The notes beneath the pieces are model-generated. The model worked only from the letters and a program-made list of their open reading frames with translations. It had not been told where the DNA came from and searched no databases. DNA of 64,000 nucleotides. Source: Kaistia soli DSM 19436 (GTDB lineage: Bacteria; Pseudomonadota; Alphaproteobacteria; Rhizobiales; Kaistiaceae). The stretch spans positions 1,530,615 to 1,594,614 of the forward strand of contig NZ_FQUP01000001.1 in assembly GCF_900129325.1 (NCBI RefSeq), given 5' to 3'. Shown in pieces: positions 14,174 through 38,588 of this stretch (the first letter of the stretch is position 1; each line of letters opens with the position of its first letter). Both the position numbers and the translations under genes were made by a program.

Positions 14174-15166
14174 CTATTTCTGGATGCAGGTGTCGGCGGT
14201 GTCCTTGGTGCATTCGTCGAGGCCGGTGAAGACCGGATCTTCGACCTTCTCGCCCTTGATCAGGCTGATCATGACGCTCGGCGCCTTGTAGCCCATCTCG
14301 AACGGACGCTGGCCGACGAGAGCCTCGACCCGGCCCTCCTTGGCGATCGCGACTTCGTCGCCGATCGTGTCGGCCGCGACGATGACGAGATCCTTGCTGG
14401 CGATCCGGTCCTTGTACTGGTCGGTCAGCTGGCGATAGGGCTGCGGCGCGCCGAACAGCGGCCAGCCGCCCTCGATTACGAAGGCGTCAAGCTTCGGATT
14501 GGCAGCCAGAATGTCCGACATCGCCTGCACGCCGGCAGGGCCGTCATCATTGGTGAACACCGGGCAACCGGCGATCTCGGTCCAGCCGCCTTCACCCTTG
14601 AGCGCGTCCAGGCCCTTCTGGCCGGACAGCGCGTCGCGGGTGCCGGAGGCGCGGCGCAGGATGTTGTCTGCCGCGGCATTGCCTTCGATCAGGCAGACGG
14701 TGCCGCCATTCGGCTTCGCCTTCTTGAGATATTCGCCGAGACGGAAGCCCATCAGGTAGTTGTCAGTGCCGAGATAGGTCTTGCGCAGCGCGGCGTCTTC
14801 CTTCTTGAGGTCGGCGTCGAGCGTCATGATCGGGATCTGCGGATTGGCAGCCCGGAGCGTGTTTGCGATCAGCGGCGCGTTCGACGGCGAGATCGCCATG
14901 GCGACCGTCGAGGGCTTGCCGAGCATGTCCTGCACGATCTGCGCCTCGCCGGCCTCGTCGGAGGTCGAAGCGGGGCCGGTGTAGAAGCACTCGTACTCGC
15001 TGTCGGCGTTTTCCTTGTTCCACTTCTCGCAGCCCTGATGGATGGCTTCGAAGAAGGGGTTGTCGAGGCCCTTCACGACGATGACGAGCTGTTTCTTGGC
15101 AGCGAACGCATCGCCGGCCGAAAGGGCCAGCACAGCGGCTGCGATCAGCATGAGGCTCTTTTTCAT
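14174..15166 (-). CDS. Periplasmic sugar-binding protein of a CUT2-type ABC importer
   Basis: The 330-aa product has a signal peptide (cleavage after about residue 22, AFA) and the periplasmic-binding-protein-4/ribose-type fold: LVIVVKGLDNPFFEAIHQG, IPIMTLDADL, YLGTDNYLMGFRLGEYL and GQRPFEMGYKAP. The paired cysteines late in the sequence (DECTK...DTCIQK) could form a disulfide. The substrate is probably a simple sugar or sugar alcohol and is not readable from sequence. It is transcribed away from its ATPase and permease partners. Two hairpins follow its stop. Confidence 0.88.
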   Translation of the reverse strand: MKKSLMLIAAAVLALSAGDAFAAKKQLVIVVKGLDNPFFEAIHQGCEKWNKENADSEYECFYTGPASTSDEAGEAQIVQDMLGKPSTVAMAISPSNAPLIANTLRAANPQIPIMTLDADLKKEDAALRKTYLGTDNYLMGFRLGEYLKKAKPNGGTVCLIEGNAAADNILRRASGTRDALSGQKGLDALKGEGGWTEIAGCPVFTNDDGPAGVQAMSDILAANPKLDAFVIEGGWPLFGAPQPYRQLTDQYKDRIASKDLVIVAADTIGDEVAIAKEGRVEALVGQRPFEMGYKAPSVMISLIKGEKVEDPVFTGLDECTKDTADTCIQK

Positions 15167-15631
15167 GGTCTCCTCCCGAGACGTTTGAAAATCTTGGCTC
15201 CGGATGTCCGGCCGCGGCCCAGTTCCCTGGTTTCTTCGTCTTTCTGGCCCCGCCGGATCCGACGGGGAGATGATGCAGGCACGCGCAGGCCTGCAGCCAC
15301 CATCCCCGATGCAGAGAAGCTATCGTTGTCGATCCAAGCGAGTCAATCCGAATGATCGTATGATATTGACATATTCCGCTTTGCGATAATTCTATACTGC
15401 GATGCAAAAAGTATTGCGCCGCAGCATCGTAATATGGTGCTCATGCGGACTTGATCTGCTCGGCCATACTGCGCGTTTCCGGCTCCATTTTTCCGCCAGA
15501 GCCGATACGGATATTCATCGGACGATCGGATTGACGGCAATCACGCTGCCGATTATTGGGATAGGGGACTGGAACGAGCCGCCCGGTCCCGCTGCGGCGG
15601 TTGGGGCCATCAGCTTCGGGAGGAGGCGGGG
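15167..15631. promoter_or_regulatory. Divergent promoter region of the sugar ABC transporter
   Basis: This 465-bp AT-richer interval has no credible gene. On the minus strand TTGACT (plus 15341-15346) and GATAGC (plus 15319-15324) are 16 bp apart and could serve the binding-protein gene. On the plus strand TTGACA occurs at 15366-15371, with AT-rich hexamers downstream but at poor spacing. An operator for a sugar-responsive regulator would be expected here, but no clean palindrome was found and no such regulator gene is adjacent. Confidence 0.45.
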
Positions 15632-20089: not shown

Positions 20090-20569
20090 TCAGGTCGTCG
20101 CTGCACCGAAACCCCGGCGTTTCAGCCGCACGATGGCGAGATCGAGCGCCGAGAGGAACGCTGATCGATCGCGCGGCGAGAAGGGCCTCGGTCCGCCAGT
20201 GATCGCGCCTGCGGAGCGTAGGTCTTCCATGAGATTGCGCGTCGCCAGCGCCATGCCGATCGAGGCTTCGGTGAAGGGTCGGCCATTTGGCGCGATGACG
20301 TCCGCGCCGGCCTTTATCGCGCGGTCGGCGAGAGGTACGTCGGACGTCACCACGATGTCGCCCTCGACCGCCCGCTCGGCGATCCAGTCGTCGGCGACAT
20401 TCATGCCGCCGGGCACGATGACCCGTTCGATCATTGGGTCGCGCGGTACCTGCATGAAGCTGTTGGCGACGACGAAGGTCTTGAGGCCGTGCCGTTCGGC
20501 GACCTTGTAGATCTCGGCCTTCACCGGGCAGGCGTCGGCGTCGATATAGATCAGGATCGGTCGAGACAT
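20090..20569 (-). CDS. YaiI/YqxD family (DUF188) NYN-domain protein
   Basis: The 159-aa product has the family opening [21 protein letters not shown] and the acidic, nuclease-like pattern [19 protein letters not shown], plus a C-terminal [19 protein letters not shown]. The NYN/PIN-like fold suggests an RNase-type metal site, but no activity is established. The ATG at 20569 replaces the longer frame to 20656, which would run through a strong hairpin. Confidence 0.88.
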
Positions 20570-20592
20570 GGAGAACAGGCTTCTCAAATGAG

Positions 20593-20618
20593 AAGGGTCG
20601 CCCGTTTGGGCGACCCTT
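20593..20618. terminator. Perfect 11-bp hairpin in the leader of the YaiI-type gene
   Basis: AAGGGTCGCCC and GGGCGACCCTT pair exactly around a 4-base loop, 24 bp upstream of the DUF188-family start. No T-run follows on either strand. It could end the upstream minus-strand transcript, or it could be a leader structure affecting translation of the gene. Confidence 0.5.
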
Positions 20619-20819
20619 CCATTGTCAGACCGCGACCCGGCCCGAAGGCCAAGCAAGGCCGGTCAAGCGGTGCGAATCCCTACGAAATCAGAGATCCGGA
20701 CCATTGCGACCAAGCCACGCGGCAAACGACAATGAGACACAGGATCACCTCCTTTCGATTGTTGAAGACAGACCGAGCTTACCGAAGATGACGGCGATTG
20801 AAAGCGGAAATTCACCGGC

Positions 20820-35237: not shown

Positions 35238-36194
35238 ATGTTGATCAAGCGCCATCGAGGCTGGGAGATTGCCGAGCGGGAGGCGACGCCGGAAGCGCTG
35301 TTCCTTGATCGCCGGGCGGTTCTGGCTGCTGGCGGCTTCGGGTTGATGGCGGCCGGGATACCGCGGATCGCGCGCGCCGAGGATGCCGATCCGAGCGCCT
35401 CGCTCTATCCCGCCAAGGCCAATCCGAAGTTCACGATCGACCGCCCCGTCACGCCCGAGGCCATTAATCTCCACTACAATAACTTCTACGAGTACAGCAC
35501 GGACAAGGATCTGGCCGATGCCGCGCAGCAGTTGAAGACGCGGCCCTGGACAGTGCAGTTCGACGGTCTTGTCGAGGCGCCCAAGACCGTCGATATCGAT
35601 GATCTCCTGAAGGCGATGACGCTTGAGGAGCGGCTCTACCGCCATCGTTGCGTCGAGGCGTGGTCGATGACCGTGCCGTGGACGGGCTTCCCGCTCGCGG
35701 CGCTCGTCGCCTATGCCAAGCCGCTCTCCGGCGCGAAATATGTGCGCATGGAGACCTTCATGAATGCCGATATGGCGCCAGGGCAGAACCAGCCCTTCTA
35801 TCCCTGGCCCTATGTCGAGGGCCTGACCATGGCCGAGGCGACCAACGAGCTCGCCTTCATGGTGACGGGCGCCTATGGCAAGCCTTTGCCGAAGCAGATG
35901 GGTGCGCCGATCCGCCTGCATACGCCGTGGAAATACGGCTTCAAGAGCGTCAAATCGATCGTCAAGATCTCGTTTGTCGAGGAGCAGCCGCTTAATTTCT
36001 GGCAGCAGCTGCAGTCATCGGAATATGGCTTCTGGGCCAATGTGAACCCTGAGGTGCCGCATCCGCGCTGGAGTCAGGCGACCGAAACGGTCATCGGCAC
36101 CAACGATCGGATCCCGACCAAGCTGTTCAATGGATACGGGGAGTTCGTAGCCGGCCTCTACAAGGGCATGGAGAGCGAGCCGCTCTATATGTGA
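35238..36194 (+). CDS. msrP: Periplasmic methionine-sulfoxide reductase catalytic subunit MsrP (YedY)
   Basis: The 318-aa molybdopterin enzyme has a Tat signal with twin Arg at 25-26 (LDRRAVLAAGG) and the molybdenum-ligating Cys138 in YRHRCVEAWSMTVPW. PFYPWPYVEGLTMAEATNEL and IRLHTPWKYGFKSVKSI are typical MsrP blocks. It reduces methionine sulfoxide in periplasmic proteins with electrons from the quinone pool through the haem protein MsrQ. No msrQ lies beside it. The molybdenum requirement links it functionally to modABC in the same window. Confidence 0.93.
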   Translation: MLIKRHRGWEIAEREATPEALFLDRRAVLAAGGFGLMAAGIPRIARAEDADPSASLYPAKANPKFTIDRPVTPEAINLHYNNFYEYSTDKDLADAAQQLKTRPWTVQFDGLVEAPKTVDIDDLLKAMTLEERLYRHRCVEAWSMTVPWTGFPLAALVAYAKPLSGAKYVRMETFMNADMAPGQNQPFYPWPYVEGLTMAEATNELAFMVTGAYGKPLPKQMGAPIRLHTPWKYGFKSVKSIVKISFVEEQPLNFWQQLQSSEYGFWANVNPEVPHPRWSQATETVIGTNDRIPTKLFNGYGEFVAGLYKGMESEPLYM

Positions 36195-36302: not shown

Positions 36303-36443
36303 AAAAGAAAAGGCCGGGCGCTCTTGCGAGGCCCGGCTAAGTCTTTGTTGCTGCGGCAGGGAAATGCGCAGCAAACACCTTCCAGAGGGAACAGTTGAGG
36401 TCCACTGGTGGCAGGGAGGAGAAAGCCACCGGCAACGCATCAA
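36303..36443 (-). ncRNA. abcR: Putative AbcR/alpha-r15-type regulatory sRNA
   Basis: On the minus strand three hairpins follow one another. The first (plus 36407-36430) has stem GGTGGC/GCCACC and exposes UUUCUCCUCCCU in its loop. The second (36348-36374) has stem TTGCTGCG/CGCAGCAA with CAUUUCCCUGC in its loop. The third (36313-36337) is a GC-rich stem GCCGGGC/GCCCGGC followed by TTTTCTTTT, a strong intrinsic terminator. Two pyrimidine-rich anti-Shine-Dalgarno loops plus a terminator, downstream of an lsrB-type gene, is how I remember the AbcR (alpha-r15) sRNAs of rhizobia, Agrobacterium and Brucella, which silence ABC-transporter mRNAs with Hfq. The 5' end (about 36443) is inferred from a TATACA -10 element. 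Confidence 0.68.
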
Positions 36444-36449
36444 CTGGTG

Positions 36450-36455
36450 TGTATA
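36450..36455 (-). promoter_or_regulatory. Candidate -10 element of the sRNA
   Basis: On the minus strand TATACA lies at plus 36450-36455, with TTGAGC 15 bp and TTGTTT 19 bp upstream as imperfect -35 candidates. It is placed correctly to start the sRNA at about 36443. The weak -35 would suit an activator-dependent promoter. Confidence 0.4.
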
Positions 36456-36488
36456 TGGAGCGATCAGGCTGCTCAAACAACCGGCATG

Positions 36489-36509
36489 AATGCATCGCAG
36501 CTATGCATT
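36489..36509. promoter_or_regulatory. Perfect inverted repeat upstream of the sRNA promoter
   Basis: AATGCAT-N7-ATGCATT is a perfect 7+7+7 dyad about 35 bp upstream of the sRNA -10 box. That is where a LysR-type activator would bind. The adjacent LsrB/VtlR-like regulator is the natural candidate, as VtlR is known to activate abcR2 in Brucella. The binding assignment is inference. Confidence 0.5.
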
Positions 36510-36698: not shown

Positions 36699-37589
36699 TC
36701 AGAACTGCCAGTTTTGGGCCTTGGCCAGCATGAAGTCGCGGAAAGCCGTCACGCGGGCCGAATTCTTGAGTTCCGCTGGATAGCAGAAATAGGTCGGGAA
36801 ACTCGGGACCTGCGCTTCCGGCATCAGCTTCACGAGGGTCGATTCGTCCTCGATCATATAGTCGGGCAGAATCGCAATGCCGGTGCCGCGTTCCACCGCT
36901 GCCTTGATGGCGTAGATATTGTTGATGCGAACAATCGGCTCACGCGGATTGTCAGTCGACCGGCCGGCGATCTCAAGCCAGTTCACATCGCGGATATTGG
37001 GCGGGACCGGAACGCCGAAGGTGACGATGCGGTGATGATCGAGATCGTCGAGCGACTCGGGCTTGCCGAAGCGCTCGACATAAGCCGGCGCGGCATAGAC
37101 GTGATAGTGCGTCGTGAACAGCCGGCGCTGGATGAGGTCTGGCTGTACCGGTTGGCGGAGACGGATTGCGACATCCGCCTGTCGCATGGTGAGATCCAGT
37201 TCCTGGTCGTCGAGGATCAGATGCAGGTTCACCTGCGGATGCAGGTCGACGAATTCGTTCAGTCGCTCCGTCAGCCAGGTGGAGCCAAGGGCCACCGTCG
37301 TCGTAATCCGCAGCGTACCCGTTGGCTTCTCGCGCGAATCCGTCAGGCGGATACGGACGCCCTCGAGCTTCATCATCACGTCCTGCGACGTTCGATAGAG
37401 CAGTTCACCCTGTTCGGACAGGATGAGGCCACGGGCATGGCGATGGAAGAGCGGTACGCCGAGATCCTGTTCGAGCGCGCTGACCTGACGGCTGACGGCT
37501 GACTGGCTCATGCCGAGCGTTTCACCCGCGTGGGTGAACGACCCGGCCTGCGCCGCCGCATGGAAAATCCGCAGTTTGTCCCAATCCAT
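36699..37589 (-). CDS. lsrB: LysR-family regulator, LsrB/VtlR type
   Basis: The 296-aa protein has the LysR winged helix (DKLRIFHAAAQAGSFTHAGETLGMSQSAVSRQVSALE, seen as the blocks IFHAAAQAGSFTHAG and SQSAVSRQVSALE), a linker helix and a periplasmic-binding-like effector domain. The N-terminus and the position beside trxB match S. meliloti LsrB and Brucella VtlR, which govern oxidative-stress, envelope and symbiosis or virulence genes and, in Brucella, an AbcR sRNA. Only one cysteine is present, Cys269 in TYFCYP. It is 30 bp downstream of trxB on the same strand, allowing cotranscription. Confidence 0.88.
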   Translation of the reverse strand: MDWDKLRIFHAAAQAGSFTHAGETLGMSQSAVSRQVSALEQDLGVPLFHRHARGLILSEQGELLYRTSQDVMMKLEGVRIRLTDSREKPTGTLRITTTVALGSTWLTERLNEFVDLHPQVNLHLILDDQELDLTMRQADVAIRLRQPVQPDLIQRRLFTTHYHVYAAPAYVERFGKPESLDDLDHHRIVTFGVPVPPNIRDVNWLEIAGRSTDNPREPIVRINNIYAIKAAVERGTGIAILPDYMIEDESTLVKLMPEAQVPSFPTYFCYPAELKNSARVTAFRDFMLAKAQNWQF

Positions 37590-37619: not shown

Positions 37620-38588
37620 CTATTCGGCCGCAACGGCCGTCATGTCCGCAACGGGATTTTCGGCAACCCAACGCTCGGCCTCGAGCGCCGCCATGCAGCC
37701 TTGTCCCGCCGCGGTCACCGCTTGGCGGAAAGTCTCGTCGGTGACGTCACCGGCCGCGAAGACGCCGGGAACGCTGGTCGCGGTCGAATCGGGCGCGGTC
37801 CAGATATAGCCGGACGCCTTCAACTGAAGCTGGTCGCGCACAATTTCGACGGCCGGCGCATGGCCGATGGCGATGAAGACGCCATGGGTTTCATGCTCGG
37901 TGATGACGCCGGTCTGGACATTCTTCAGCCTGAGACCGGTCACCGATGGCGGGAAGCCGGCCTTGCCAGTCACTTCCTCGATCACCGTGTTCCAGAGCAC
38001 CTCGACATTGTCCTTGGCCAGCAGGCGGTTCTGCAGGATGCGCTCGGCGCGGAAGTGGTCGCGCCGGTGAATGATCGTGACCTTCCGCGCGATATGAGAA
38101 AGATAAAGCGCCTCCTCGACCGCGGTGTTGCCGCCGCCGACGACATAGACGTCCTTGCCGCGATAGAAGAAGCCGTCACAGGTGGCACAGGCTGAGACAC
38201 CGAAGCCCTTGAAGCGCTGTTCGCTTTCAAGGCCGAGCCAACGTGCCTGGGCGCCGGTCGCGATGATCAGGCTGTCAGCCGTGTAGATTTCTCCGGAATC
38301 GCCCTTGAGCAGGAAGGGGCGCCGCGAGAGGTCCGCCTCGATGATGTGATCGGTCACCATGCGCGTGCCGACATGCTCGGCCTGCAGGCGCATCTGTTCC
38401 ATGAGCCATGGGCCCTGGATCACATCGGCGAAGCCGGGATAATTCTCGACATCGGTAGTGATGGTGAGCTGGCCGCCGGGCTGGACGCCGGCGATGAGCA
38501 GGGGTTCCAGCATCGCGCGCGCGGCATAGATGGCGGCGGTGTAGCCGGCGGGGCCGGAACCGATGATGATGAGCTTGGCGTGTTGCAT
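37620..38588 (-). CDS. trxB: Thioredoxin-disulfide reductase
   Basis: The 322-aa flavoprotein has the FAD-binding GSGPAGYTAAIYAARA, the redox-active CATC (Cys134-Cys137) and an NADPH-binding GGGNTAVEEAL. The C-terminal GVFAAGDVTDETFRQAVTAAGQG (given here as AAGDVTDETFRQA) binds FAD again. It reduces thioredoxin with NADPH. The gene precedes the LsrB-like regulator gene by 30 bp and diverges from the Lrp-type regulator. Confidence 0.95.
   Translation of the reverse strand: MQHAKLIIIGSGPAGYTAAIYAARAMLEPLLIAGVQPGGQLTITTDVENYPGFADVIQGPWLMEQMRLQAEHVGTRMVTDHIIEADLSRRPFLLKGDSGEIYTADSLIIATGAQARWLGLESEQRFKGFGVSACATCDGFFYRGKDVYVVGGGNTAVEEALYLSHIARKVTIIHRRDHFRAERILQNRLLAKDNVEVLWNTVIEEVTGKAGFPPSVTGLRLKNVQTGVITEHETHGVFIAIGHAPAVEIVRDQLQLKASGYIWTAPDSTATSVPGVFAAGDVTDETFRQAVTAAGQGCMAALEAERWVAENPVADMTAVAAE

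Follow-up and report, generated by a model that had tools for sequence, protein, structure and literature searches.

A single-copy, probably AbcR1-type small RNA gene beside lsrB in Kaistia soli, and its possible relation to SorX-type RNAs of the class

The described systems closest to the RNA considered here are the AbcR sRNAs of S. meliloti, A. tumefaciens and Brucella and the SorX RNA of R. sphaeroides. According to the accessible part of one study (PMC8844928), the AbcR RNAs of S. meliloti carry one seed, CUCCUCCC, in loop 1 and a second, UUCCCCUC, in the linker, and the abcR1 promoter of this species carries the LsrB consensus GCAT-N3-TG-N3-T at -61 to -49; the PabcR1 promoter comparison in the same source already spans "several alphaproteobacteria". 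The gene order in Agrobacterium is given as trxB-vtlR-abcR1-abcR2 in the available text of PMC7486931, and according to the excerpted part of a review (PMC7143759) ABC-transporter mRNAs make up 35-45% of the highest-ranking AbcR targets predicted in S. meliloti. SorX of R. sphaeroides, as described in portions of two papers (PMC9438474, PMC6238624), is cut from the 3' end of an OmpR-type mRNA, not of lsrB, and represses potA. The accessible text of a 2011 rhizobial sRNA survey names AbcR1 once (PMC3927594). Among the open-literature matches listed for Kaistia, AbcR1, AbcR2 and ar15, the only Kaistia paper concerns a biocontrol consortium in the rhizosphere, and we found no paper in the open literature treating SorX together with AbcR1, VtlR, LsrB or AbcR; the novelty of the Kaistia sRNA is therefore judged against the open literature only, with subscription papers, including the 2018 AbcR review, outside its scope.

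The locus lies in a 64,000-nt stretch of Kaistia soli DSM 19436 (the window; all coordinates are window positions), with the following features:

37620-38588, minus strand: trxB, thioredoxin reductase (TIGR01292)
36699-37589, minus strand: lsrB/vtlR orthologue of the LysR family, whose protein shares 61-76% identity with LsrB at 13 loci of other genera in the order
36491-36507, minus strand: predicted LsrB box TGCATAGCTGCGATGCA, by match to the published consensus
36453-36458, minus strand: putative -10 hexamer CCATAT, found in 13 of 14 genus loci (ACATAT in L013)
36303-36445, minus strand: AbcR1-type sRNA gene of about 143 nt, from fold, ar15 alignment and genus alignment, with an inferred 5' end at 36445
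36414-36421, minus strand: aSD1 seed CUCCUCCC, located in the hairpin 1 loop and the same as aSD1 of S. meliloti AbcR1/2
36385-36391, minus strand: aSD2/M2-like seed UUCCCUC in the linker (compare UUCCCCUC of S. meliloti)
36347-36375, minus strand: enlarged hairpin 2 with loop UUUCCCUGC, a candidate third seed, from sequence and fold comparison
36303-36337, minus strand: intrinsic terminator with TTTTCTTTT, ending at 36303, from sequence and fold
35238-36194, plus strand: msrP, methionine-sulfoxide reductase catalytic subunit (NF003767), convergent with the sRNA
15164-15177, minus strand: predicted target site GGGAGGAG-ACC-ATG of a CUT2-type solute-binding protein gene (14174-15166)

The minus strand reads trxB-lsrB-sRNA, with about 250 bases between lsrB and the sRNA, such that the RNA gene lies beside lsrB/vtlR and downstream of trxB as in Agrobacterium; the LsrB of the window is 96% identical to that of K. 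dalseonensis. The original prediction, drawn from the letters of the window, had named an AbcR/alpha-r15-like sRNA gene beside lsrB, and this identification is borne out by gene order, the position of the LsrB box, the presence of both seeds, covariation in the stems and reciprocal covariance searches. Its minus-strand sequence, coordinates, hairpins and terminator agree with our re-examination, as does its remark that a single copy is visible: a search of the genome returned one full copy (E 1.5e-40), and the next match (E 0.13) covered the terminator part only.

The sRNA was present in all 13 other genus genomes searched, giving a footprint in 14 of 14 with our own, and the DNA query matched 18 of 28 family genomes (own included), the 10 misses being other genera. 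In the alignment of the 14 genus loci, most of the intergenic DNA is unalignable, and three elements stand out, namely a 17-bp palindromic box, the CCATAT hexamer and the whole RNA. Pairwise identity, at 40% before the box, rises to 91% within it. Between box and start it is 74%; hairpin 1 reaches 81% and 69% in its arms and 91% in its loop, the linker motif 95%, hairpin 2 96% and the terminator 99%, and identity falls to 26% in the 60 columns past the terminator. Four of the 41 stem pairs in this alignment have changed on both sides. A loop that is kept while its stem changes, with some two-sided pair changes, is the mark expected of a functional RNA loop. Judged by this alignment, the stretch is a real conserved gene, far more than chance would give.

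At -53.9 kcal/mol, the predicted fold of the 141-nt minus strand is more stable than shuffled versions are on average (-42.2; z -3.19), of which 2 in 200 do equally well, and it shows three stem-loops, aSD1 in loop 1 and aSD2 in the linker, as in the AbcR RNAs. Hairpin 1 has a 6-bp stem, GGUGGC/GCCACC, around UUUCUCCUCCCU. The proposal that two pyrimidine hairpin loops serve as anti-Shine-Dalgarno seeds held for loop 1, an exact aSD1; the second AbcR seed, however, is not the loop of hairpin 2, and the aSD2-like UUCCCUC, missed earlier, lies in the linker and is one C shorter than in S. meliloti. This UUCCCUC form occurs in the window and in L002-L004, L011, L013 and L015, and the other Kaistia loci have UUCCCCUC, a one-base difference in a near-invariant seed. 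The third hairpin is an intrinsic terminator, as had been proposed, with the stem GCCGGGC...GCCCGGC followed by TTTTCTTTT to 36303; a generic terminator scan missed it, the stem being bulged and, without the bulge, the loop too long for the scan. Hairpin 2 is short in the Rhizobium-type members shown and longer elsewhere. A pyrimidine run (CCCUG or CCCC) between linker and terminator occurs in 4 of 6 f1 loci shown (one of the four too short to fold), 5 of 5 f11 loci and 4 of 5 f14 loci, with differing stems, and is absent from the shown loci, a few of them incomplete, of 11 family labels (f13, f17, f19, f23, f24, f28, f35, f41, f44, f49 and f50). We infer that the UCCCUG loop of hairpin 2 is a candidate third seed.

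Upstream of the RNA, the consensus GCAT-N3-TG-N3-T is matched exactly by GCATAGCTGCGAT at 36506-36494, which is -61 to -49 of a start at 36445, and it precedes the sigma-70-type hexamer CCATAT, as at abcR1 promoters. The start is more likely 36445 than 36443, since the ar15 alignment begins there and this position follows the -10 by 7 bases; of the span 36303-36443 first given for the sRNA, the 3' end is retained and the 5' end is shifted accordingly. A generic sigma-70 scan reported no promoter at the sRNA, and the -35 is weak. Three of the 14 Kaistia loci deviate from the strict box consensus (AG for TG). Altogether the promoter looks like one of the LsrB-dependent abcR1 kind.

The Rfam ar15 model (RF02345) aligns over its full length to the Kaistia sRNA at 18.8 bits with a cut-off of 40, so that the check put forward in the original prediction, an ar15 score above the gathering threshold, failed and the RNA falls outside the curated family. 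The Rfam gathering search of the window likewise gave no ar15 match. At E 1e-3, ar15 found no match in the Kaistia genome, and as 14 control genomes were also unmatched, this genome-wide null is not evidence of absence. Among 199 genomes of the order, 24 were matched by ar15 at E<=1e-3 and 7 passed the cut-off; the 18 sub-threshold loci that were fetched included 13 matches of 130-141 nt and 11 loci with an LsrB orthologue. Graded intermediates in other families have ar15 scores from 18.8 to 42.5, and because they bridge the gap to the curated members, the ar15 model is taken as probably too narrow. The sole gathering match in the window is a separate element at 20594-20764 on the minus strand, Rfam CC2171 (a Caulobacter sRNA; 77.4 against a cut-off of 75), which overlaps the start of a minus-strand frame at 20090-20656. 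It carries GAAAGGAGGUGAUCC, which we take to be the exact complement of the 16S rRNA 3' end.

Two wider models were built, whose E-values are rough. Model R1, trained on 13 Kaistia sequences plus L015 from a different genus of the family (14 in all), was searched in 87 sources, with L101-L128 left out, and found the tandem Agrobacterium copies (L099, E 1.2e-3 and 4.6e-4) and a Brucella locus (L064, E 2.7e-4). At E<=1e-3, model R2, from 35 sequences, matched 100 of 198 order genomes; at E<1e-5 there were 78, with 21 family labels, and at least 16 of these 78 had supplied training sequences. Applied to 142 genomes drawn from the class, R2 gave a best non-own match of 4.1e-5, with 12 of 141 reaching 1e-3 and 0 of 141 at E<1e-5; hence E 1e-5 stands above the noise. 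Double changes were seen in 37 of 41 pairs, with covariation of 0.433 against 0.147 when shuffled and 0.03-0.07 when slid, in an alignment fitted to the model and thus favouring this result. One R2 match, in L316, was discarded as unrelated terminator DNA. Taken together, it is well supported by these comparisons that the Kaistia sRNA would be an AbcR1-type RNA with a modified, enlarged second hairpin, which the curated model misses in the genus. Since ar15 passes its cut-off in 7 of 199 order genomes, compared with the 78 of 198 that the wider model reaches at E<1e-5, much of the order probably has a nutrient-uptake regulator that is unannotated.

Anchoring on lsrB gave a similar picture. Both seed motifs were found by regex within 1.3 kb downstream of lsrB in 70 of 80 named loci (the best 80 of 590 LsrB matches), and in 54 of these 70 an exact box lies 101-120 nt upstream of the linker motif (0.3% per shuffled stretch), the other 16 having no exact box in the stretch tested. 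Among the 10 named loci without regex motifs, L053, L054, L068 and L088 were matched there by R1, the sequence of L097 is incomplete, and L056, L059, L080, L084 and L100 have lsrB followed, over the stretch of downstream DNA covered, by neither an AbcR-type motif nor an R1 match, an apparent loss of the AbcR-type gene. Seven other loci (L142, L148, L151, L156, L157, L158 and L160) have strong R2 matches (E 5e-23 to 9e-18) with no LsrB within the 1.5 kb examined on each side; apparently these AbcR-type genes have been relocated, and five of the seven bear family label f19. Two entries titled Bacillus subtilis SK6B4 (L114) and Arenimonas MAG (L076) have a rhizobial-type lsrB with AbcR motifs downstream, and their labels look wrong or their assemblies mixed.

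We weighed three other explanations of the locus. That it encodes no sRNA at all, being a small reading frame or merely the shared terminator of lsrB and msrP, is highly improbable: an 81-codon minus-strand frame (36582-36337) does span most of the RNA and the terminator hairpin gives a match (13.6 bits) on the plus strand as well, but indels of one and two bases among the Kaistia loci break any frame and exclude a conserved one, nothing in the alignment points to a frame being preserved, two-sided changes maintain some of the stem pairs, and conservation reaches 170 nt before the terminator. Release of the RNA from the 3' end of the lsrB mRNA by RNase E, in the manner of SorX rather than from its own promoter, would agree with the position of the SorX-type class matches, which in 41 genomes follow lsrB on the same strand at a distance of 127-680 nt, and with R. 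sphaeroides SorX being a 3'-UTR product in the available text of PMC9438474 and PMC6238624. Such processing is nevertheless unlikely, given that lsrB and the RNA are separated by a conserved LsrB box and CCATAT, that the DNA before box and hexamer is unconserved, and that a weak terminator-like hairpin intervenes at 36554-36527 (shuffles average 0.8 such sites).

It is equally unlikely that an unrelated anti-Shine-Dalgarno sRNA evolved separately next to lsrB and came by convergence to resemble AbcR in layout. The ar15 score far under the cut-off, the nearly equal scores of the anti-hemB and SorX models here (18.3 and 16.9 bits) and the recurrence of pyrimidine loops with CCGGGC terminators in many class matches would all suit convergence, yet the RNA shares locus and strand, box spacing and an identical seed 1 with AbcR1, the ar15 scores are graded through other families, and R1 finds the rhizobial members. 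We consider it highly probable that the gene encodes a single-copy AbcR1-type trans-acting sRNA of Kaistia, activated by LsrB and blocking mRNAs for solute-binding proteins of ABC importers.

The target side of this reading was examined by searching the Kaistia genome for the aSD1 complement GGGAGGAG 2-11 bases before ATG, which gave 41 rows, as compared with 2 for the reversed pattern. Setting aside ORFs <60 aa (9 of 40 loci) and L221 (the same gene as L220), 30 ORFs of >=60 aa were left, 26 with a Pfam family, comprising 11 ABC solute-binding proteins and 2 ABC permeases. Two GGAGG-core controls were treated likewise: AAGGAGGA gave 13 ORFs scanned (9 of 22 dropped), 7 recognised and 1 a solute-binding protein, and AAGGAGGB gave 14 ORFs scanned (from 30 of 55 rows, 16 of 30 dropped), 10 recognised, with no solute-binding protein and 1 ABC ATPase. 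Solute-binding proteins are thus predicted in 11 of 26 aSD1 genes vs. 1 of 17 in a small, partly sampled control (Fisher p 0.014), and all ABC parts in 13 of 26 vs. 2 of 17 (p 0.020); strong Shine-Dalgarno sequences before solute-binding-protein genes may be favoured for other reasons. For the linker seed, the complement GAGGGAAC before ATG (7 of 17 ORFs dropped) gave 9 recognised genes with no solute-binding protein or other transporter part; seed 2 is therefore without target support in Kaistia. Of the two targets originally proposed, the sugar-binding-protein leader at 15166 was retained, as it has a 9-base match to seed 1 (GGGAGGAGA) and belongs to one of the 11 solute-binding-protein genes, and the modA leader (12824), which has no seed 1 match in its sequence and is not among the 11, was dropped. 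The RNA duplex energy at the 15166 leader did not stand out from that of shuffled leaders, 42 of 200 of which reached as low a value; the method ignores internal structure, and its result was given no weight.

We surmise that LsrB, encoded just upstream on the same strand, would bind the box at 36507-36491 and would activate the sigma-70-type promoter, as inferred from the site and shown only in S. meliloti and Agrobacterium. The resulting RNA of about 143 nt would expose CUCCUCCC in loop 1 and UUCCCUC in the linker, and both seeds would pair with Shine-Dalgarno regions of mRNAs for ABC-importer solute-binding proteins, blocking translation. By analogy with the known AbcR family Hfq probably takes part, and a further contribution to targets or strength may come from the third pyrimidine loop, that of hairpin 2. 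Redox or metabolic input via LsrB would in this way become lower nutrient uptake.

The class-wide searches led beyond AbcR. Among the 12 weak R2 class matches, L164, L169 and L174 adjoin LsrB orthologues (51-58% identity) and have SorX (RF02784) scores of 43.2, 40.9 and 28.7 bits, with a cut-off of 46.6. Across 289 class genomes the SorX model matched 90 at E<=1e-3, 4 of them above the cut-off; LsrB was found at E<=1e-90 in 131 class genomes including our own, and 63 had both, the remaining 27 with a SorX-type match having no LsrB at this level. In 41 of the 63, with 27 family labels, the SorX-type match follows lsrB on the same strand within 700 nt, in 10 it lies 1.0-5.6 kb downstream on the same strand, and in 12 it is not near; by simple arithmetic, chance adjacency would be expected in far less than one genome. 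Loci were also fetched by LsrB alone, and a regex located a 3' module with the consensus ACGUCUCCCAGACGUGAAGCCUCCCUGUU-GACUU-GCCGGG within 700 nt in 12 of the best 29 non-own ones. Members of family label f94 have a long first hairpin with a pyrimidine loop (CUCCUCCC in L293 and L302, CUCCCUCCC in L287) and were found by R2 (2.4e-7 to 3.5e-5 in a search of 43 loci), and in L024, inside the order, one RNA matches both ar15 (42.5) and SorX (30.8). At the level of sequence, these data show a class-wide link of lsrB with a predicted anti-Shine-Dalgarno sRNA.

Descent of AbcR and SorX from one RNA is put forward as a hypothesis. It is nearly as likely as not, though we advance it tentatively, that the lsrB-linked anti-Shine-Dalgarno sRNA is an ancient class-wide partner of LsrB, with AbcR of the Hyphomicrobiales and the SorX-type RNAs of other orders being two forms of one gene, and that the UCCCUG loop in Kaistia is a remnant of the SorX-form seed CCUCCCUG, giving three seeds vs. 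two in rhizobia. Model R3, built from 15 class-wide 3' modules, matched the window only in GACUU plus terminator (17.6 bits, E 0.003; a second, unrelated window match had 0.026), and in 34 of 39 rows of order loci it matched only from position 50 on, mainly the terminator; we therefore rejected R3 as proof of homology between SorX-type RNAs and the Kaistia sRNA. A common origin is weakened by this near-restriction to the terminator in Kaistia and by R. sphaeroides SorX being an OmpR-type mRNA product. The lsrB-linked RNAs give a concrete test of it. The link between the redox-sensing LsrB and an anti-Shine-Dalgarno sRNA appears far wider than the host-associated bacteria where it has been studied, which suggests a basic redox-to-uptake circuit, not only a device of symbiosis or virulence.

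Compared with the known systems, the Kaistia sRNA resembles AbcR1 of S. meliloti, A. tumefaciens and Brucella in its place beside lsrB/vtlR on the same strand, its LsrB box at -61 to -49, and its three hairpins with CUCCUCCC in loop 1, a pyrimidine linker seed and an intrinsic terminator. In contrast to AbcR1/ar15, it is longer (143 nt vs. 112 model positions), has hairpin 2 enlarged with the UUUCCCUGC loop and a linker seed one C shorter, is single copy and lies under the Rfam cut-off. MmgR/suhB (RF00519) shares the Rfam clan CL00108 with ar15, and three RNAs of the class from the lsrB/msrP locus have matches to it that stay under its cut-off of 41 (L174 35.3, L167 34.5, L169 30.0); its model is shorter (77 positions) and gave no match in this region of the window up to E 10. 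SorX of R. sphaeroides is an anti-Shine-Dalgarno sRNA directed against an ABC transporter mRNA, in oxidative stress, and its relatives beside lsrB share with the Kaistia RNA the order CCCUG-(A)GACUU-GCCGGG near the terminator. The curated SorX model, however, scores the Kaistia sRNA at 16.9 bits vs. its cut-off of 46.6 and found no match in the Kaistia genome at E 1e-3; SorX is 75 nt long, and its model lacks any equivalent of hairpin 1 and of the linker seed, both of which the Kaistia RNA has in common with AbcR1.
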